From contig DJRZ01000046.1 of the NCBI GenBank assembly GCA_002440235.1, forward strand, positions 69,070 through 112,367: 43,298 nucleotides of DNA, in the 5' to 3' direction. The position numbers were made by a program, and so were the translations under genes. Source of the stretch: Alphaproteobacteria bacterium UBA6347. Lineage in GTDB: Bacteria > Pseudomonadota > Alphaproteobacteria > CAAGCB01 > CAG-977. This document shows positions 450 through 42,029 of this stretch, piece by piece. The notes below the pieces were generated by a model. That model was not told the DNA's origin. It did not search any database and saw only the letters and a program-made list of their open reading frames with translations. Every line of letters begins with the position of its first letter. The stretch's first letter is position 1.

Positions 450-2336
450 ATGAAAAAACTGACCGATTTCGACAGAAACACTTTGGGCGTCGCGGGACTG
501 GTCTGCGCCGTCGTCCTGTTTTTCAGCGTCAACGTCGTCGCGGCGTTTTTGATGAAAAACTACCGGCTGGATCTGACGCAGGCGCATCTGTATTCCCTGT
601 CCGAAGGATCGGTCCGCGCCGTTTCCGACATCAGGGAACCCATCACGATCCGGTTCTATCTGTCGGGCAAGCTGGCGAAGGCGTCGCAGCTGCACGCGAC
701 CTACGCCGTGCGCGTCATCGAACTGCTGGAACAGTACGTTTCCGCCTCCGACGGCAAAATCAGGCTGGAAGTCATCGACCCCGAACCGTTTTCCAAAAAA
801 GAGGACGAAGCCCTGAGCTACGGACTGAAAGGCATTCCCGTCGGCGATTCGCAGGAATACGTCTACATCGGGCTGACGATTTCCAATTCGTCCGACAGAC
901 GCCGCACCATCGCGATGCTGGATCCGTCGCGCGAACGGTTTTTGGAATACGACATTACGAAATACCTGACCGACCTGACGCGTTCCAAACGCCTGACCGT
1001 CGGCATCATCAGCACTCTGCCCATTGACGGACAGGGCGAACCGCAGCTGATCTATCCGAAATACTATCCCCGCTGGGCGGTCATGGACGTCGTGCGCGAC
1101 ATTTTCGACGTGCGGTTCATTTCGCGCCAGACGCTGGACATTCCGAACGACATCGACGTTTTGCTGCTGGTGAACCCCAAGCATTTCAGCGACGAAACGC
1201 TGTACGCCATCGACCAGCACGTCATGCGCGGCGGCAATCTGATCGTCCTGGTCGACCCGTTTTCGCAGATCGAAGCCGATCTGGGCGACACGCCCTACAC
1301 CGTCCGCCCCGATCTGGACAGGCTGTTCAACGCGTGGGGGGTGTCGTTCGACCCGTCGCGGTTCGTCGCCGACACGACGCTGGCGCGCGTCATCGGACAC
1401 GCGCGGGACGGCAAGAACATTCAGACGAAATATCCGCCGTGGCTGTCTTTGAACGCCGACTACCTCAGCCCCGAAGACCCCGTCACGGGGGCGGTCAGTT
1501 CGGTCAATCTGGCTTACGCGGGATCGTTCGACGTCTTTAAAAAGGTCGACGGGCTGACCGTCACGCCGCTGATGTATTCGTCCAAGGATTCCGAACTGAT
1601 GGAAAACATCGACGGTCTGGATCCCGATCCAGCCGCCATGCTGCGCGATTTCAAACCCGGCGGCAAAAATCTGATTTTGGGACTGCGCGTCAAAGGGACG
1701 CCCGCTTCGTCGTTCGACAAGGCGCCCGAACGCAATTTCCTGAAACAGCGTCCCGAAGCCCACCTGCCCAAAGCCGTCCGCCCCGTGAACATTATTCTGA
1801 TCGCCGACAGCGACCTGCTGGCGGACGGAATGTGGGTCGAAAAATCGGGCGCGCTGGGCGTGCGCCAGCTTTATCCGTTCGCGGGAAACGCGGATTTGAT
1901 CGTGAACGCTTTGGACAACCTCAGCGGCGCGGCGTCCTTGATCGACTTGCGGTCGAAAGCCGAATGGCGACGCCCGTTCACCGTCATCGAAAATCTGGCG
2001 CTGAAAGCCGAAAAGTTGTACCGCGAACAGGAAACGCGGCTGTATTACGAATTGCAGGCGACGCGGGAAAGACTGCGCGAACTGACCAAACGCGCGTCGG
2101 GCGAAGGCAGGGATCTGCTGTCCCGCGAAGACAAAGAGGAATTGAAATCCCTGCAAAAACGCCAGCTGGAACTGCGTTCCGCCTTGCGCAACGTCCAAAA
2201 CGTTCTGGTCAGGGACGTCGCCGGTTTGCAGTCCGACATCGTCCTGATCAACGTGCTGTTCGTTCCCGCCCTGCTGATCGTCGTCGCTCTGTTCGTCGCC
2301 AGACGCCGCCGCGCCGGACGCCGCCGGTCGCGTTAA
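450..2336 (+). CDS. GldG-family ABC transporter auxiliary membrane protein
   Basis: This 628-residue protein has an N-terminal membrane helix (about residues 13-34), a long extracytoplasmic region, a predicted coiled coil (about 525-585, rich in Glu, Arg and Leu) and a C-terminal helix (about 600-620) followed by an Arg-rich tail. This is the layout of the GldG / ABC_transp_aux family, which works with an ABC-2 permease and an ATPase. The ATG lies two bases after the permease stop, so the two are co-transcribed and probably translationally coupled. The large middle domain probably binds a partner or substrate in the periplasm, but neither is known outside gliding bacteria. Family assignment is firm; function is not. 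Confidence 0.85.
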   Translation: MKKLTDFDRNTLGVAGLVCAVVLFFSVNVVAAFLMKNYRLDLTQAHLYSLSEGSVRAVSDIREPITIRFYLSGKLAKASQLHATYAVRVIELLEQYVSASDGKIRLEVIDPEPFSKKEDEALSYGLKGIPVGDSQEYVYIGLTISNSSDRRRTIAMLDPSRERFLEYDITKYLTDLTRSKRLTVGIISTLPIDGQGEPQLIYPKYYPRWAVMDVVRDIFDVRFISRQTLDIPNDIDVLLLVNPKHFSDETLYAIDQHVMRGGNLIVLVDPFSQIEADLGDTPYTVRPDLDRLFNAWGVSFDPSRFVADTTLARVIGHARDGKNIQTKYPPWLSLNADYLSPEDPVTGAVSSVNLAYAGSFDVFKKVDGLTVTPLMYSSKDSELMENIDGLDPDPAAMLRDFKPGGKNLILGLRVKGTPASSFDKAPERNFLKQRPEAHLPKAVRPVNIILIADSDLLADGMWVEKSGALGVRQLYPFAGNADLIVNALDNLSGAASLIDLRSKAEWRRPFTVIENLALKAEKLYREQETRLYYELQATRERLRELTKRASGEGRDLLSREDKEELKSLQKRQLELRSALRNVQNVLVRDVAGLQSDIVLINVLFVPALLIVVALFVARRRRAGRRRSR

Positions 2337-2354
2337 GGAATAAGGAGTCCCGCC

Positions 2355-3428
2355 ATGCACCCGCGTTCTTTTGTCAAGCTGTCGATCGCCGCCGCGGTCA
2401 TGTTCCTGTTCGCCGCGTGCGTCTGGGTGACGACGCCCGAATATTCGGCGGGATCGTTTTCGGGCGAACCGCTTCTGCCCGATTTGATGAACAGAATCAA
2501 CGACGTCGAGGTCGTTTCCATCGAACACGGCGGCGAAACGATGACGTTCATGCGCGACGACGGCGCCGGCTGGGTGATGACGGAAGCCGACAACTATCCC
2601 GCGGACAGGGACAGAATCCGCAACGTTTTGATCGGACTGGCGGGACTGGAAAAAATCGAACCCAAAACCGCCCTGCCCGACTTTTATCCCGATCTGCGGG
2701 TTGAAGACAGTTCGACGAAGGGCGCGCGGTCCTATCTGGTGACTTTGCTGGATTCGAACGGCGCGCAAATCGCCGGCGTGCTGATGGGCAAGCGGTCGGG
2801 CGACGATTTCGGAAACCTGTACGGATATTTCGCGCGCTTTCCCGACGACGCGCAATCGTGGCTGGTGCGCGGCAACGTCGACGTGACGGGAGGTTTGTCC
2901 GATTGGCTGAACACGCGTCTGCTTCCGTTGGAAAAGCGGAAAATCGCGTCTTACACGATCATCGATTCGACCAAAACGCGCGAAGCCGTGTACCGCCGTT
3001 CGACGTGCGACGGCGATCTGAACATCGCCTACCTGTCGGACGGCTACGTCGTGACGGGTCCGGAGTTCGTTCAGAACGTCGAAAAGATCCTGCGTTCGTT
3101 CGATTTTGAAAAATCCGTCGCCCGCACGCCGGAATGGAACGAAATCCGACCCGCCGCCTACGCCGTCGTCGAAACGTTCGACCGGCTGACGGCTTATCTG
3201 TTCATTTATTTAAAGGATTCCGTCCCTTATGTCGCCGTGACGTTCGACGCCCAGCCGAACGCGTCCGCCGCCGTCAAAGCCGAAGCGCAAAAACTGGACG
3301 CGCTTCACGCCCCGTGGCTGTACCGCATGCCGAACGAAAAGGTGACGGATCTGTTGCCGTTTTTGAAAAAACCGGACGAAAAGCCCGCCGCCGCCGCGAA
3401 AACGAAAAAAGCGAAAAAGCGCAAATAA
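2355..3428 (+). CDS. DUF4340 domain-containing membrane-anchored protein
   Basis: A 357-residue protein starts with a hydrophobic segment (about residues 9-23) and then has the beta-rich, repetitive region of the DUF4340 family, including the Trp-containing stretch near residues 65-80 that recurs in such proteins. The C-terminus is Lys/Ala-rich and probably disordered. It lies 18 bases after the GldG-type gene with AAGGAG at about 2340, and is the usual third member of this ABC cluster. The biochemical role of the family is unknown. A Cys at residue 22 follows Ala-Ala, so a lipobox is possible, but the following hydrophobic residues make a plain membrane anchor equally likely. It ends tail to tail with the regulator gene one base away. 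Confidence 0.75.
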   Translation: MHPRSFVKLSIAAAVMFLFAACVWVTTPEYSAGSFSGEPLLPDLMNRINDVEVVSIEHGGETMTFMRDDGAGWVMTEADNYPADRDRIRNVLIGLAGLEKIEPKTALPDFYPDLRVEDSSTKGARSYLVTLLDSNGAQIAGVLMGKRSGDDFGNLYGYFARFPDDAQSWLVRGNVDVTGGLSDWLNTRLLPLEKRKIASYTIIDSTKTREAVYRRSTCDGDLNIAYLSDGYVVTGPEFVQNVEKILRSFDFEKSVARTPEWNEIRPAAYAVVETFDRLTAYLFIYLKDSVPYVAVTFDAQPNASAAVKAEAQKLDALHAPWLYRMPNEKVTDLLPFLKKPDEKPAAAAKTKKAKKRK

Positions 3429-36027: not shown

Positions 36028-36735
36028 TCACTCCAAGAAAATGGGGCGAATGGGCAGACCTTCCGCCAGCAGTTGTTCGTCTTTGATTTCGATGAAACCG
36101 TCCTTTTTCACGTCGATGTCGGCGCGGTACACAGAATCGCCGTACAGCATGATGGCGTCCAAAGCGAAACCGTCGCCGGTTTCCGTCACTTTGGCGGGAC
36201 GGATCATGTGCGTGACGTCCTTGCGCTGCTGCGGGGTGGGCGTGTCGGTAAAGGTGTCTTCGTCGACCTTTTCGACCAGACGCAGGGATCCCTGTTCGGT
36301 CTGAACGGCGTCCAGAACAAATGCGGCATAAGCGACGACCGTGTCTTTGTTCAGGATCAAGCCGCCCTTGGGATTGTTTTCGAAAATGGGTTCGCGCGTG
36401 CCGTCCATTTTGATCACTTCGGCGTTTTCGCCCTCGCCTTTGATCAGGTATTCCATCGTCACGGGCGGAATGGAGGAAAACGTCGTCGCCTGCAACAGCT
36501 TGAATTCCGAATAGAACGGCAATTCGGCGATCGTCAGGTGCGAACGTCCCGGGGTGAACATGTCGAACGTCGACAACGCGTTGATTTTTTTAATCAAGAC
36601 CTCGATCTGATCGTCGGGAATTTCATTCCAGTTGTACTGAGGCATCGGTTTTCTCCATATCCAAGTCAATAAAAGCATCGTTATCAGGCACAGCCCTAAC
36701 GCTCTGGTCGGAATTTTAAACTTTCTTGTCTTCAT
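36028..36735 (-). CDS. Membrane-anchored protein of unknown function
   Basis: A protein of 235 residues with a basic N-terminus, one membrane helix (about residues 10-28) and a soluble domain of mixed strands and helices. There are no cysteines in the soluble part and no motif I recognise. The layout suggests a single-pass inner-membrane protein with its domain in the periplasm. It sits 10 bases after the TPR-methyltransferase gene and nine bases before the ALDH-like gene, so all three are probably made together. LptC was considered because of layout and length, but the sequence pattern does not support it. Confidence 0.65.
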   Translation of the reverse strand: MKTRKFKIPTRALGLCLITMLLLTWIWRKPMPQYNWNEIPDDQIEVLIKKINALSTFDMFTPGRSHLTIAELPFYSEFKLLQATTFSSIPPVTMEYLIKGEGENAEVIKMDGTREPIFENNPKGGLILNKDTVVAYAAFVLDAVQTEQGSLRLVEKVDEDTFTDTPTPQQRKDVTHMIRPAKVTETGDGFALDAIMLYGDSVYRADIDVKKDGFIEIKDEQLLAEGLPIRPIFLE

Positions 36736-36745
36736 TGTCCAGTTT

Positions 36746-38563
36746 TCAGTTTGAAGCCGCCGGCGTTTTTTCGGCGACGCAGACGATTCCCGCGACGTCC
36801 GCGCCTTTTTCGCGGCGCAGGATTTCGTCGGTCAGGCGGATTTTTTCAAATCCCGCGCGTTTCGCGACGTCGGCGACATAGTCCGGACGGTGGGCGAAAC
36901 GCCCCGACGCGCGCAGGGAAAACGGCTGTTCCGCGTCCGATTTTTCAACGGTGAGAAAGACTCTGCCCCCCGCCGCCAAAGCGCGGAAGACGGCGCGCGC
37001 CAATTCGTCCAGATCCCCGAAATAGCACGCGACGTCCGCCAGAACGACCGCGTCGAACGCGTCGGGACAGCCGCCGCAGAACGCCGAAACGTCGGAAACG
37101 CGCAAATCGTCGTACAAATTTTTCATTTTCGCGGCGGACAGCATCTTTTCCGACAGATCGACGCCCGTCAGGCGCAACGATTTCGGCTTCAGACAGGCGG
37201 CGCACAGCCCCGTGCCGCACCCCGCGTCCAGTATCCGCAGACCGTCGGGCAGATCCGCGGCGAAAGCGGCGACCAGTTCGGGAACGCGGTAATCGATCTC
37301 TTTCGCCGTTTTTTCAAACGAATCGGCGAAAGAATCGAACAGTTCGCGCACGTATTCCCCGTTCGCGGAATCGACGCCGCCGCCTTCCAGCGCGGCGCAG
37401 ACGTGGCGGGCGACGGCGCTGTCGGGAAAGAACTGCCGCCATTTTCGCGCCAGTTTGACGGCGGTTTCCTTCGCGTCCGGATCCGCGCCGCAGTACAGGT
37501 CGTACAGCGTTTGCGCCAGATAGTGGTGGATTTCGGTCAGCTTCGGATTCAGCGCCAAAGCGTTCACGAACAGTCCGGCGGCTTCGGCGGGATCGCCCGC
37601 CTCTTTGACCGCCAGCGCCAGATTGGAACAGGTCTCCGCCTGTTTCGGATTGATGATGAACGCCTTGCGGTAGCATTCCAGCGCCTCTTCAAACCGTCCG
37701 CCGTCGTACAGCAAAGCCCCCAGATTGTTGAAAGCCGACGCGAATTCCGGATCGAGCCGGACGGCTTTCTTATAGTCGTCCTCCGCCTGCCAGCGTTTGC
37801 CGAATTTGGCGTACACGTTCGCCCTGTTGTTATAGGCGTCGGCGAAATCCGGATCGATTTCGATCGCGCGGCAGTACGCGTGAAAAGCCTCGTCCAGCCG
37901 TCCCAGCCGTTCCAAAGCGATGCCCCGCCCGTTTATGTAAATCGCGTTGCCGGGCGACAGTTCCGCCGCCTTGTCATACTGTTCCAGCGACTGTTCGTAT
38001 TTTCCCGCCAGCCGCAGCGTGACCGCCCTTTGCGCGTAGGCTTCGGCGTTTCGCGGATCGGCGGCGACGGCTTTGTCCAGCCGCGCCAGCGCGCCGTCGA
38101 AATCCCCCGCGTCGCGCGCCAGCAAAGCCAGATTGACGTGAGCCGACGAAAAAACCGGACGCATCGCGACCGCCTTTTCGAACAGTTCGCGCGCCTTGTC
38201 CGCGTCGCCCAGAAAACGGTGGACGATGCCCATGTTGTGATAGGTTTCGGGGTACGAATCGTCCATCGCCAGAACGGTTTTGTAGTGTTCCAGCGCCTCC
38301 TTGGGTCTGCCGGCGTCCTGCAAAGCCTGCGCCAGCGTAAATTCGCACGCGACGTCTTCGGGCGCCAGCCGAACGGCTTTGTACAGCAGTTCGATCGCCG
38401 AATCGTAAGCGCGCCGCCGCATCGCGATCATCGCCAGCAGCCGCGTCGCGCCGACGTGTTCGGGCGCGACCTCCAATATCCGGCGGTAGGCGTTTTCCGC
38501 CTCGTCCAGCCTGCCTTGTTCGTGCAGGCGCACCGCGTTTTGAAAAACCAGATCGAAAGACAT
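36746..38563 (-). CDS. TPR repeat protein with C-terminal SAM-dependent methyltransferase domain
   Basis: A 605-residue protein. Residues about 5-380 hold around ten TPR units, with the usual Gly/Ala/Tyr/Pro spacing (34 residues). A class I methyltransferase domain follows (about 440-600), with motif I Leu-Asp-Ala-Gly-Cys-Gly-Thr-Gly at 445-452, the acidic motif II Gly-Val-Asp-Leu-Ser, and Ala-Asp-Val-Ala-Cys-Tyr-Phe. Proteins of this design are common in Alphaproteobacteria; substrates are mostly unknown. No signal peptide, so cytoplasmic. It is the first gene of the leftward operon with bamD, recN and ligA and is divergent from the large membrane protein gene. Confidence 0.85.
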   Translation of the reverse strand: MSFDLVFQNAVRLHEQGRLDEAENAYRRILEVAPEHVGATRLLAMIAMRRRAYDSAIELLYKAVRLAPEDVACEFTLAQALQDAGRPKEALEHYKTVLAMDDSYPETYHNMGIVHRFLGDADKARELFEKAVAMRPVFSSAHVNLALLARDAGDFDGALARLDKAVAADPRNAEAYAQRAVTLRLAGKYEQSLEQYDKAAELSPGNAIYINGRGIALERLGRLDEAFHAYCRAIEIDPDFADAYNNRANVYAKFGKRWQAEDDYKKAVRLDPEFASAFNNLGALLYDGGRFEEALECYRKAFIINPKQAETCSNLALAVKEAGDPAEAAGLFVNALALNPKLTEIHHYLAQTLYDLYCGADPDAKETAVKLARKWRQFFPDSAVARHVCAALEGGGVDSANGEYVRELFDSFADSFEKTAKEIDYRVPELVAAFAADLPDGLRILDAGCGTGLCAACLKPKSLRLTGVDLSEKMLSAAKMKNLYDDLRVSDVSAFCGGCPDAFDAVVLADVACYFGDLDELARAVFRALAAGGRVFLTVEKSDAEQPFSLRASGRFAHRPDYVADVAKRAGFEKIRLTDEILRREKGADVAGIVCVAEKTPAASN

Positions 38564-38590: not shown

Positions 38591-38619
38591 TTGACTTATA
38601 CTTTATGCGAGTCTATGAA
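38591..38619 (+). promoter_or_regulatory. Sigma-70-like promoter of the large membrane protein gene
   Basis: TTGACT (38591-38596) and TATGAA (38614-38619) are spaced by 17 bases, 38 bases before the ATG at 38658. An alternative -10, TATACT, lies at 38597-38602. The whole divergent control region is only 94 bases. Confidence 0.6.
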
Positions 38620-38657
38620 TAAATACCATCTTTATTGTTGTCCAGCGGGAAACGAAC

Positions 38658-41600
38658 ATGGAAGAAACCGATCGCATTGAGGAAAACCACAACGAAGCCA
38701 AAGCCAGAGAAGCCGAACGCAAACAGAAAAACGAGGCGTCCTTCACGTTTTTCATGCACGGGTCGCTGTTCGTGTTTTTCATGACGGCGTTCACGTTCCT
38801 GCTGTTTCTGTACGTCAACAAATATCCGCTGATTCTGAACAACGAAATCCTGCCCGAAGTGCTGTTCGCCTGTTTCGGGCTGCTGGTGTTTTCCTTTGTT
38901 TCCCTGTTTTTGCTGTCGTTCTGCCGTTTTCTGGCGCGCGCGTACATCGCGCTGATCGCGGGGGGCGCGCTGGCGTGCGTTCTGGGGCAGATCCTGCCCT
39001 ACAACGTCGGGAACTACGCGGCGCATTACCTGCCGTTCCTGCCGCGCGACCTGTTGATGATCGTCGCCGACCACGGCAATCAGGCGGTCGCCGTCGCCGG
39101 ATTCGTCTTTTTCTTCGTCCTGCTGCAAATCTGTCGGGGCGGAGCGATGGCTTTCCTGTCCCTGCCCGCCCTGATCGGGCTGTTTTTGCTGATGAACACC
39201 GCCGCGAAACGTCAGGTTCCCGAAATTTCGGGCGTTTCTCCCGCCGATTTCGCGAAAAGCGTCGGCGACGGCGAAAAAACGCAAAACCTGATCTATCTGA
39301 TCTTGGCGAATCACGCCGGATACAACGCCGCCGCCGAAAGCTGGCAAACCCTGCACGACAAGGTGTCCGACCCGCAGAATCTGCCTTTGTCCCCGAAATT
39401 CGTCCCCGCCTTTTACCGTTCGAACAAATTTCTGTTCCACCCGACGGTTTATCTGCGCTACCGCGACAAATACCGCAACATCGGCACCGCGCTGAACCCG
39501 ACGCTGACCGAAATCGGCGACGACCTGTTCAACCGCGACGATTCGGCGTACTACATCGGTTCGACGGATTCGCGGGCGTTCGCGACGCGCAACGATCTGT
39601 TCGCCAAATTCAAGGAACGGGGCTACCGCCTGAACGTCTACCAGACCTACCCGTTCGATTTCTGCAAGGGCGCGGGCAAGGGAACCGTCGATTTCTGCGA
39701 AACGTACCCCGCTCCGCTGGGCGCGCTGTATCAGGCGGACCTGTCCACGGCGACGAAGCTGATGCTGATGTTCGGGCATTGGCTGTATTCCATGCCGGTC
39801 GGTCAGCAGTTCGCCGATTTCGCCTATAAAAAGCTGAAAGGAAGCTTCGACCCGTCGTCCGTTCCGTTCGTCGGCAACCCCTTGTCGCGGTCTTTGCCGC
39901 TGGGGCAGCCGACCGTTTTGTCCCGTCTGCGCAAGGACGTTCTGGCGTCGAAGGGCAAAAACGTGTTTTTCGCCCACGTCAACCTGCCGCACTATCCCTA
40001 TGTGTACGACGAAAACTGCCGTTTGAAAAAAGATCCGATGACGTGGCGCAGTTTCGCCCCCTATACGGAAAAGAAGGAACTGAACGGCGAACTGAAACGT
40101 TGGGAAGACTACAACCGCCAGCTGCTTTGCACTTACGGTCAGCTGGAATACCTGATCAAAGATCTGGAAAACGCCAAGCTGGCGGACAAAACGACGATCG
40201 TCGTCCACGGCGACAAGGGCGCCGGAATCCGAAAGGAAAAAGCCGACGACATCGTGATGCAGCGCGTCGACAAAACCATGGCGCGGTTTAAAAGCGACAT
40301 GACGACGACTTTCGCCGTGTTCAAACCGGAAAACAAAAAGGCGCAGACGGACGCGAAGCCCTGCGATTTGGGAACGCTGATCGCCCGCGACGTTCTGGGC
40401 GACGAAAACGCCTTGTGCCAGTCCCCCGACTTTGCGAACTTCACCCCCGAAGAACGCGAAAAAACTGAAAGCTGGTTGAACACGCCCGTCCCCGAAAGCT
40501 ATATGAAAACGGACGGTTTCGACGGTTATTACGCCGACTGGCGCGAAAAGGGCGGCGACGCGTTCATGGCGTCGCTGGACGAACGCCTGACCTTGGCGGA
40601 CAAAGCGGTCGACAAAAACGCGAAGATCGGCTTCGTCGCCCCGCCCGATTTCGCCGCGGCGTCCGAAAAGACGGCGGCGAAACCCGCGAAACAAAACGGC
40701 GTCCCCGATTTCTTCCCCGTGCCGACGCCGGGAACGGACGCGGTTCCTCCGCCTCCGCCGCCCGCGGTCGACGAAGGGAAAGCCGCCGCGCCGCCCCCTC
40801 CGCCCGCCGACGCGGCGTCGGACGCGCCGAAACAGGCGGACGACACCGTGATTGAAACGCCCGCCGCCGGTAAAAACGCGATCGACATCATCGTCGACGA
40901 TTTCGGCGCGGCGCCCGCCCCGATGGAACTGCCGCCGACGGACGCGGAAGAAAAATGGAAAACCGCCGACATCAAAGCGGGACAAGAAACAACGCTGGAA
41001 AAAGTCCCCGACGAAATTCTGAACGCCGACGGCGTCGCCGCGCGCGACGTTCCGCCCGCGCCCGAATCGGCTGAAACGCCCGCCGTCGTTGTGACGGAAA
41101 CGCCCGCCCCCGCGACCGGACAGGCGCAGGACGTCCCCCCGCCTCCCCCGCCCGCAACGGAGCAGGACGCGACGATTCCGCCTCCGCCGCCCGTGACGGA
41201 GCCGGACGCGGTCGTTCCGCCCCCGCCGCCCGCGGTCGACGAAGAGGAAGCCGCCCGCTTGAAAGCGCAAGCCGACGAGGAAGCCCGCCTTAAAGCCGAG
41301 GCGGAAGAACAAGCCCGCGCCGAAGCGGAGGAGAAAGCCAGAGGCGAAGCCGAGGAAAAGGCGCGCCTTGCCGCCGAACGCAAAGCGCGGGTCGAAGCCG
41401 AAGTCCGCGCCCGCGAAGAGGAACGCCGCAAAATACGCGAAGCCGAAGAAGCGAAAGCCCGCGCCGAGGCGGAGGCGAGAGCGAAAATCGAAGCCGAGGA
41501 AAAAGCCAAACGCGACGCCGAACTGAAAGCCAAAGCCGAGGAAGAGGCGCGCGCCAGAGCCGAAGCGGAACGCAAAGCCCGTGAAGAGGCGGAAAAACGG

Positions 41601-42029
41601 ACGAAAGAACTGTTCGACGTCGACCGGTTGGACATCACGCGCGAAACCGTGACGGAACGCGTCAACGACGACGGCGAAGTGGAAACGTTCATTTACATCG
41701 AACGCAAACCCAACCCCAACCGTTTCAATAAAAAACCGAAAAAAATCGCCGAGGGACGCGATCTGCCGCAGGATCCCGAACGCGCGGCGCCGCCCGTTCT
41801 GAAAACCGAAAAGCCGGACGATCTGATCCGCCAGCCCGTTCCCGACGCGAAACGCGAACTGGTCGACGACGCTCCCGAACAGGCGTCGCCCGATCCGGCG
41901 GCGACCGCCGGAAATTCCGCCGAAACGGCGGCGTCCGGAACGGTTGCCGCGCCGATCGCCCCCGCGGTCGAACCGCCGCCCGCAAATCCCGCCGCCGTTC
42001 AGCCGAACGAACGCGTTTTGGACGATTAA
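38658..42029 (+). CDS. Five-TM sulfatase-fold-like protein with polyproline and long charged helix
   Basis: An 1123-residue protein in several parts. After a charged cytoplasmic start come five membrane helices (about 31-53, 65-90, 95-113, 142-158, 164-181), as in YejM and LTA synthase-type proteins. Residues about 205-560 look like a degenerate alkaline-phosphatase/sulfatase fold: His-Val-Asn-x-Pro-His-Tyr-Pro-Tyr at 440-448 and Val-His-Gly-Asp at 516-519. The tail has polyproline blocks (697-702, 712-716, 827-832, 841-845, 854-858), then a Glu/Ala/Lys/Arg helix (861-985) with a TolA domain II-like pattern, and a small C-terminal part (about 985-1025) before disordered sequence. The family assignment is moderate, the layout certain. 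Possibly an envelope-spanning protein. Confidence 0.75.
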   Translation: MEETDRIEENHNEAKAREAERKQKNEASFTFFMHGSLFVFFMTAFTFLLFLYVNKYPLILNNEILPEVLFACFGLLVFSFVSLFLLSFCRFLARAYIALIAGGALACVLGQILPYNVGNYAAHYLPFLPRDLLMIVADHGNQAVAVAGFVFFFVLLQICRGGAMAFLSLPALIGLFLLMNTAAKRQVPEISGVSPADFAKSVGDGEKTQNLIYLILANHAGYNAAAESWQTLHDKVSDPQNLPLSPKFVPAFYRSNKFLFHPTVYLRYRDKYRNIGTALNPTLTEIGDDLFNRDDSAYYIGSTDSRAFATRNDLFAKFKERGYRLNVYQTYPFDFCKGAGKGTVDFCETYPAPLGALYQADLSTATKLMLMFGHWLYSMPVGQQFADFAYKKLKGSFDPSSVPFVGNPLSRSLPLGQPTVLSRLRKDVLASKGKNVFFAHVNLPHYPYVYDENCRLKKDPMTWRSFAPYTEKKELNGELKRWEDYNRQLLCTYGQLEYLIKDLENAKLADKTTIVVHGDKGAGIRKEKADDIVMQRVDKTMARFKSDMTTTFAVFKPENKKAQTDAKPCDLGTLIARDVLGDENALCQSPDFANFTPEEREKTESWLNTPVPESYMKTDGFDGYYADWREKGGDAFMASLDERLTLADKAVDKNAKIGFVAPPDFAAASEKTAAKPAKQNGVPDFFPVPTPGTDAVPPPPPPAVDEGKAAAPPPPPADAASDAPKQADDTVIETPAAGKNAIDIIVDDFGAAPAPMELPPTDAEEKWKTADIKAGQETTLEKVPDEILNADGVAARDVPPAPESAETPAVVVTETPAPATGQAQDVPPPPPPATEQDATIPPPPPVTEPDAVVPPPPPAVDEEEAARLKAQADEEARLKAEAEEQARAEAEEKARGEAEEKARLAAERKARVEAEVRAREEERRKIREAEEAKARAEAEARAKIEAEEKAKRDAELKAKAEEEARARAEAERKAREEAEKRTKELFDVDRLDITRETVTERVNDDGEVETFIYIERKPNPNRFNKKPKKIAEGRDLPQDPERAAPPVLKTEKPDDLIRQPVPDAKRELVDDAPEQASPDPAATAGNSAETAASGTVAAPIAPAVEPPPANPAAVQPNERVLDD
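40746..41612 (+). repeat. Region coding for polyproline blocks and the charged single helix
   Basis: Inside the large gene, five proline blocks are coded at 40746-40763, 40791-40805, 41136-41153, 41178-41192 and 41217-41231. The first and last are followed by nearly the same stretch coding Ala-Val-Asp-Glu, a sign of internal duplication. From 41238 to 41612 the sequence codes for short, imperfect Glu-Ala-Glu-x-Lys-Ala-Arg type repeats. Confidence 0.8.

Follow-up and report, generated by a model that had tools for sequence, protein, structure and literature searches.

Membrane proteins in which five transmembrane helices are followed by a phosphatase fold form a known class, to which EptA, LtaS and YejM/PbgA belong, and it is already known from YejM that a membrane protein of this fold can lack the catalytic residues. 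According to the available portions of PMC7240159 and PMC9356133, the membrane part of YejM suffices for the binding of LapB, and YejM restrains the degradation of LpxC; the part of a 2025 review at hand (PMC12444477) presents other controls of LpxC, alphaproteobacterial examples included, as still emerging. Here we describe a protein of this class encoded on the plus strand at 38658..42029 of a 43,298-nucleotide stretch of Alphaproteobacteria bacterium UBA6347 (contig DJRZ01000046.1, positions 69,070 to 112,367), the whole of which we call the window. Its periplasmic domain looks like a pseudoenzyme and is followed by a long arm with a conserved, predicted beta-hairpin near its end. Three things are new here: this arm, whose tip is conserved; a catalytic site whose replacement is shared across a distinct cluster of alphaproteobacterial proteins; and the lack of any Pfam or NCBIfam family that matches the window protein above the cut-off. 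A literature search returned no paper joining sulfatase, pseudoenzyme, Alphaproteobacteria and periplasmic domain, none joining phosphoethanolamine transferase with pseudoenzyme, and none joining YejE and YejF with sulfatase.

The original prediction, made from the letters of this DNA, had described five membrane helices, a sulfatase-like domain, proline blocks and a charged helix, an architecture confirmed by AlphaFold2, by hydropathy for the helices and by structure search for the domain. The full-chain AlphaFold2 model (20 sequences) has a mean predicted local distance difference test score (pLDDT) of 65.6, and the model of residues 1-660 (31 sequences) has a pLDDT of 86.0 and a predicted template-modelling score of 0.86. 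Both runs concur on five membrane helices, an alpha/beta domain until about residue 606 and closing helices until about 650; beyond that point the full-chain model is disordered down to its end except for a helix (864-985) and a hairpin (993-1017). The tail thus amounts to about 460 residues of proline-rich disorder, a 122-residue charged helix, the predicted hairpin and an acidic end. The same prediction knew of no described protein with this combination; the membrane and phosphatase module by itself is not new, YejM/PbgA, EptA, MCR-1 and LtaS sharing it. It had missed both the pseudoenzyme look of the domain and the hairpin after the helix, which is the conserved part of the tail. The main parts of the gene are as follows.

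38658..42029, plus strand: whole gene, 1123 amino acids, a predicted five-helix membrane protein of pseudo-phosphatase/sulfatase fold with a periplasmic arm (open reading frame translation, AlphaFold2).
38742..39209, plus strand: five transmembrane helices, residues 29-184 (hydropathy, AlphaFold2).
39276..40475, plus strand: alkaline-phosphatase-superfamily domain, residues 207-606 (AlphaFold2; Foldseek and VIA; Pfam Sulfatase below threshold).

The structure search matches the alkaline-phosphatase superfamily over most of the domain and gives residues 203-606 this fold, in agreement with what had been proposed for residues 205-560; the VIA rows mostly span these same residues 203-606, not the tail. 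The top Foldseek match by E-value is YejM (PDB 6v8q and 6xlp, listed for YejM/PbgA/LapC). EptA, EptC, LtaS, YejM and soluble sulfatases are near-tied, and therefore the structure ranking selects no substrate. The window protein resembles EptA and MCR-1 in its membrane bundle and EptA, MCR and LtaS in its domain fold, but differs from the latter three in that the metal-ligand and nucleophile columns are replaced. Closer to home, a set of uncharacterised alphaproteobacterial sulfatase-like proteins with five transmembrane helices (P0024 and P0030-P0032; 550-567 residues) has a homologous domain and shares four of its six cysteines; these proteins retain the motifs DE(H/Q), Thr/Ser and HGDHG(S/A)R, and their chains stop shortly past the domain, with no tail.

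The replacement of catalytic columns is the first of the two observations on which our argument depends. We take A217, K271 and K520 of the window protein to stand in the columns of the first metal ligand, the nucleophile and the last metal histidine of LtaS/EptA chemistry, an assignment transferred by alignment and not by a solved structure of the window's family.

39306..39308, plus strand: A217, in the column of the first metal-ligand Asp of apparently intact relatives (alignment).
39468..39470, plus strand: K271, in the column of the Thr/Ser nucleophile (alignment).
40206..40217, plus strand: HGDK (residues 517-520) in place of HGDH, Lys standing for the last metal His (alignment).

All six canonical proteins in the alignment carry the three motifs named above, with Asp in the first column (6/6), Thr (5) or Ser (1) at the nucleophile and His in the last column (6/6). 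In the 30 rows of the window's family these columns hold, respectively, Ala 25, Ser 4 and Glu 1; Lys 22 and Arg 8; and Lys 19, Arg 7, Ser 2, Gln 1 and one gap. The window protein itself, with A217, K271, D519 and K520, does not have the set found in active EptA/LtaS-type enzymes. In a sister clade of 15 rows the first Asp has become Pro (14) or Thr (1), Thr is found at the nucleophile column in one row, and the Asp of HGDH (15/15), the last His (15/15) and the counterpart of H440 (14/15) are gone as well. Counted over the 46 non-canonical rows, all three catalytic positions are lost in 43 and two in the remaining three, the partial losers being L009, with Glu at the first column, and P0038 and P0029, with Thr and Ser at the nucleophile. 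These rows are not independent, since a limit of 90% identity reduces the 30 of the family to 24; the sister clade keeps all of its 15. FastTree separates the 46 non-canonical from the six canonical rows with a support of 0.999, and a third cysteine pair (C569, C587) follows the same division (46/46 against 0/6). Branching within the non-canonical part is weak, with a support of 0.644 for the window's family and 0.443 for P0029 with the sister clade, and the tree, being unrooted, cannot alone tell which way the change went. Judged from these residues, the domain looks enzymatically dead.

On which side of the inner membrane the domain and its tail lie can be argued from several features. The cytoplasmic loops are short and positive, the number of helices is odd, hydropathy gives no membrane segment after residue 184, the six domain cysteines are retained in 46/46 non-canonical rows, and the measured tails contain no cysteine. 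For these reasons the sequence fits an N-terminus inside, with domain and tail in the periplasm, as the original prediction had it, and nothing indicates a cytoplasmic tail. Residues 1-28, on the other hand, are net negative (6 K/R, 9 D/E) and give no help to the positive-inside argument.

The second observation concerns the tail, whose parts are very unequally conserved.

40623..41246, plus strand: disordered proline-rich linker, residues 656-863 (pLDDT below 50 for most of it).
40878-41027, plus strand: moderately conserved linker stretch, residues 741-790 (identity 0.389).
41247..41612, plus strand: charged single alpha-helix, residues 864-985 (AlphaFold2, composition).
41625..41729, plus strand: conserved predicted beta-hairpin motif, residues 990-1024, LDITRETVTERVNDDGEVETFIYIERKPNPNR (AlphaFold2, identity, profile).
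42003..42026, plus strand: acidic C-terminus, ERVLDD in the window, ERVLED or RELTD in many relatives (alignment).

Expressed as mean pairwise identity over 17 full-length family proteins, conservation reaches 0.605 in the membrane part, 0.539 in the domain and 0.632 in the hairpin (990-1024), against 0.282 in the helix; the last eight residues stand at 0.492, and segments 691-740 (0.076), 791-862 (0.163) and 1025-1115 lie between 0.08 and 0.17. When the tail is cut into windows of 35 residues, none of the 364 others is as conserved as the hairpin (best 0.472). That the hairpin might be the best-conserved stretch of the whole protein was considered and rejected, 57 of 366 domain windows equalling or exceeding it (0.743 for the best, which starts at residue 431). 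Its conservation is thus that of the upper sixth of the domain, and it is carried on a spacer of free make-up.

The helix, which the original prediction had placed at the centre, behaves differently. Its length comes close to the one that had been given for crossing the periplasm (122 residues, or about 18 nm with a rise of 0.15 nm for each), and its charge pattern is of the single alpha-helix type rather than that of a coiled coil, which is not favoured because its 9 LIVMF residues in 122 show no heptad excess (2-4 per heptad phase). A helical run of this kind (51-179 residues, EAKRQ at least 0.83) is found in 18 of 25 relatives; in the other seven (P0006, P0018, P0021, P0022, L008, L009, L012) it is missing or short, and runs of at least three prolines are missing in 10 of the 25. 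The helix can hardly be the key element, then, and a function as a ruler is rejected on the same grounds, its length going from nothing to about 179 residues. The hairpin string, for its part, is present in 24 of the 25 relatives, the exception being L009, whose genome matches the hairpin profile. This set of 25 excludes L004prot (an open reading frame in the wrong frame), the loci L002, L006, L010 and L011, and, as being short or frame-shifted, P0012, P0013, P0020 and P0023; L012prot equals P0021 in length and features. Tails measure about 360-630 residues in the family and 45-373 in the sister clade, P0029 having none. In P0001 the aligned PVP position is 687, and the PVP at 610 is a chance match.

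Whether the hairpin is a module shared with other proteins was addressed with a profile, which over 17 genomes matches this gene only, in every family genome (11 of 12) except G011, where the contig stops inside the gene. Further rows in G003 (three) and G010 (one) have E near 0.09 with stops inside. In G002 the hairpin match and the front of the gene lie on separate contigs, for which reason the gene was probably split by assembly. A database search with residues 982-1028 gave 11 matches among 16 candidates, all of the window's family, within a search confined to proteins of similar total length.

As for the spread of the family, 23 proteins were retrieved from the database, P0002 being the one that matches the window protein; the alignment holds the window protein and 19 relatives, omitting P0012 and P0023 as fragments and P0024 as too distant. 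A profile scan with one genome per species found 12 loci, all in alphaproteobacterial metagenome-assembled genomes, several of them titled rumen or faeces. The apparent spread of 12/12 within family and order is circular, because the family and order searches returned genomes already found by the profile, and a sample of the class gives a fairer count: of 385 genomes 20 match, five with a family member, five with other degenerate proteins (G059, G081, G183, G278, G354, small genomes of 1.4-1.7 Mb with more distant proteins), five with canonical-type proteins (G013, G090, G106, G108, G309, that of G108 being a frame of 391 residues, seen without its front) and five through low-complexity tail matches only (G076, G082, G094, G184, G378). 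A second profile matches 16 of the 385 class genomes, G386 among them, and a search with four degenerate proteins gave 12 database entries (P0033-P0044), one of which is the query itself.

Two genes beside the one described here are kept with it in most relatives.

36746..38563, minus strand: divergently transcribed tetratricopeptide repeat (TPR)-methyltransferase, 605 amino acids, a syntenic neighbour (Pfam, synteny).
36028-36735, minus strand: HYP235, 235 amino acids, a conserved protein with a single N-terminal membrane segment as judged by eye.

The TPR-methyltransferase divergently adjoins the gene in 11 of 12 loci and lies about 4.3 kb off in L012; in the sister clade it is found across rpsD in L052, L054 and L055 and is not near the gene in L056, L053 ending too soon. 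HYP235, which has no Pfam match up to E 1, sits between the TPR-methyltransferase and an aldehyde dehydrogenase in the relatives' loci (12/12). Because HYP235 and the aldehyde dehydrogenase (12/12 each), BamD (11) and RecN (10) are kept upstream too, the adjacency of the TPR-methyltransferase is weak evidence of a functional pair. Downstream, the family loci have a glutaredoxin (7/12) and PLD (6/12), L002 and L011 stopping at contig ends. In four of four sister-clade loci (L052, L054, L055, L056) yejE-yejF follows the gene immediately, overlapping it or after a gap of 11-12 bp. The microcin C permease model is the best match of all four yejE candidates, over the cut-off in two, and the YejF model that of the two yejF candidates tested, below the cut-off in both; the yejF of L054 and L055 were named by eye. 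No yejA or yejB was seen beside the gene in these loci, by eye only. Elsewhere in the window, two adjoining open reading frames at 450-3428 (plus strand) have matches to ABC_transp_aux/DUF7088 and DUF4340, which belong to an ABC transport system of uncharacterised kind. The GC content is 59%, and long antisense open reading frames lie opposite likely genes, for instance at 38613-41312 (minus strand); we take these to be a mechanical by-product of GC-rich sequence.

A likeness of the arm to TolA/TonB had also been proposed, and it survives for composition but not for the SHLS motif or the gene cluster. The spacer is, as in TolA and TonB, periplasmic and proline-rich or charged-helical, and the TolA model scores 52.1 bits on the low-complexity tail, below its cut-off of 59.45; unlike TolA/TonB, the protein has five transmembrane helices. 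Its C-terminus gives no Pfam or NCBIfam match to a TolA/TonB C-terminal domain, in a test that is insensitive, three relatives' TolA candidates being equally without a match to such a Pfam family. The portion of PMC12204202 consulted places an SHLS motor-binding motif in the first transmembrane helix. In the family, 26 of 30 rows have His34 in the first helix, and 23 of 30 have a Ser/Thr at the position four residues earlier; in the sister clade His34 is absent (15/15). By the spacing of the motif along the helix, two of four SHLS positions are matched, position 41 being Phe in 30/30 and position 45 Ser in only 2/30. Each of the 12 family genomes has one ExbD/TolR match, away from the window-type gene, and a TolA-like gene beside TolR (12/12 stretches, L023 being cut at a contig end), with tolQ in 10 and tolB in 10; L021 and L023 are partly under antisense open reading frames or cut, and L024 ends before tolQ. 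The TolA-like sequences of five of the 12 were read; the genes are named by position and sequence features, because the three that were scanned match no Pfam TolA family. No tol gene is found among the scanned immediate neighbours in the window. That the protein replaces TolA is rejected, since the family genomes own a separate TolR/ExbD and TolA-like gene. In several of these bacteria (L013, 2264-3312, and equivalent stretches) two small Pal-type proteins seem, by eye, to follow tolB in the tol cluster.

Our preferred interpretation starts from what the computations give directly, namely the fold, the replaced catalytic residues, the periplasmic side and a conserved tip on a variable spacer, and we would put its chance of being right at about one half: the protein would be a non-enzymatic YejM-like sensor or tether, a dead relative of EptA, LtaS and YejM with a length-tolerant arm and a conserved hairpin tip. 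The five-helix bundle and the dome-like periplasmic domain would sit at the inner membrane, the domain having lost its activity and probably binding a lipid, a lipopolysaccharide (LPS) precursor or a protein without chemistry. The arm, a disordered proline-rich linker with or without the charged single helix, would tolerate changes of length and bring the small C-terminal hairpin within range of a partner at the cell wall or the outer membrane. The two membranes would so be linked, and a signal might perhaps return through the membrane bundle, as in YejM. A more elaborate version, in which one chain compares both membranes, the domain reading lipid or LPS, the tip reading the wall or outer membrane, and the whole reporting to the TPR-methyltransferase, strikes us as rather unlikely.

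Several results weigh against the sensor or tether. YejM leads by E-value only, its TM-scores being low (0.16-0.31, on full-length chains), and soluble sulfatases, LtaS and EptC equal or exceed it by TM-score or Z. The hairpin model is weak (pLDDT about 60-65), many domain windows match or beat the hairpin in identity, and the tails of the sister clade are without it (0/5 non-family genomes by profile). The family keeps Asp519 in 28 of 30 rows and H440 in 30 of 30, and YejM, also without the expected residues, is reported as a Mg2+-dependent phosphatase in the available part of PMC12444477, so that motif loss is no proof of loss of activity. These last two points, with H445 retained in 26 of 30 rows and the Glu of L009 at the first ligand column, also speak for an active enzyme with an altered metal site, for instance a one-metal phosphatase or phospho-transferase. 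We think this unlikely, as the nucleophile column is Lys or Arg throughout the family, the first ligand column is Ala or Ser in 29 of 30 rows, and the sister clade persists with the Asp of HGDH, the last His and nearly always H440 gone. Equally, much of the tail is poorly conserved (0.08-0.28) and its helix and polyproline come and go, as one would expect of a functionally neutral low-complexity sequence on a relic enzyme; the identity of the hairpin, unequalled in the tail, and that of residues 741-790 make such neutrality quite improbable.

YejM is the strongest analogy, which we hold with modest confidence and limit to "works like". The window protein has the five transmembrane helices followed by a periplasmic alkaline-phosphatase-fold domain, and the missing catalytic residues, of YejM/PbgA (on the YejM side, the part of PMC7240159 seen). 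It differs in being without the DUF3413 (PF11893) membrane-domain signature, which is over the cut-off in 0/20 related genomes (one weak match in G013), the E. coli control being over it; in its linker 185-206, which is not basic (2 K/R, 4 D/E), the basic region of PbgA being 191-245 in the portion of PMC6921655 consulted; and in its tail of about 460 residues, none being mentioned for YejM in the available parts of PMC7240159, PMC9356133 and PMC12444477. The LapB model is over the cut-off in 0/17 related genomes (relatives only) and in 1/14 controls, generic TPR matches being found in 17/17. Since the tests of signature, of partner (in the relatives' genomes) and of linker all fail, a true functional counterpart of YejM/LapC, sensing inner-membrane LPS and controlling its synthesis with the cytoplasmic TPR-methyltransferase in the role of LapB, seems doubtful to us, even with YejM first by E-value, the TPR-methyltransferase so often adjacent, and LpxC matched in 19 of 20 genomes (G081 by a fragment only). 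LpxC was not found in G012 among the 20 genomes searched, which may reflect either a gap in the assembly or a true loss. The methyltransferase domain is, moreover, common (333 of 385 class genomes at E 0.001), and its adjacency may be passive synteny. The position directly upstream of yejE-yejF in the sister clade, with the models matched there, would suit an accessory subunit of a Yej-type importer handling periplasmic peptides or muropeptides; this we judge very unlikely, the family having glutaredoxin and PLD downstream, and no yejA or yejB being seen, by eye, beside the gene. The least probable of all, and only barely credible, is a TolQR-powered force transducer docking on the motor through its first helix: His34, the preceding Ser/Thr and the TolA-like composition are in its favour, but the Leu and second Ser of SHLS are unmatched, a TolA-like gene is present in each family genome, and the sister clade does without His34.

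If a non-enzymatic sensor or tether is what this family encodes, the finding touches the question of how Gram-negative bacteria beyond the Gammaproteobacteria match the supply of inner-membrane lipid to the outer membrane, for which a dead but conserved transferase, its arm long enough for the outer membrane, offers a specific candidate and a specific tip. After YejM, it would be the second instance in which this fold has outlasted its catalytic residues, and the same bacterial class offers apparently intact and degenerate members for comparison.

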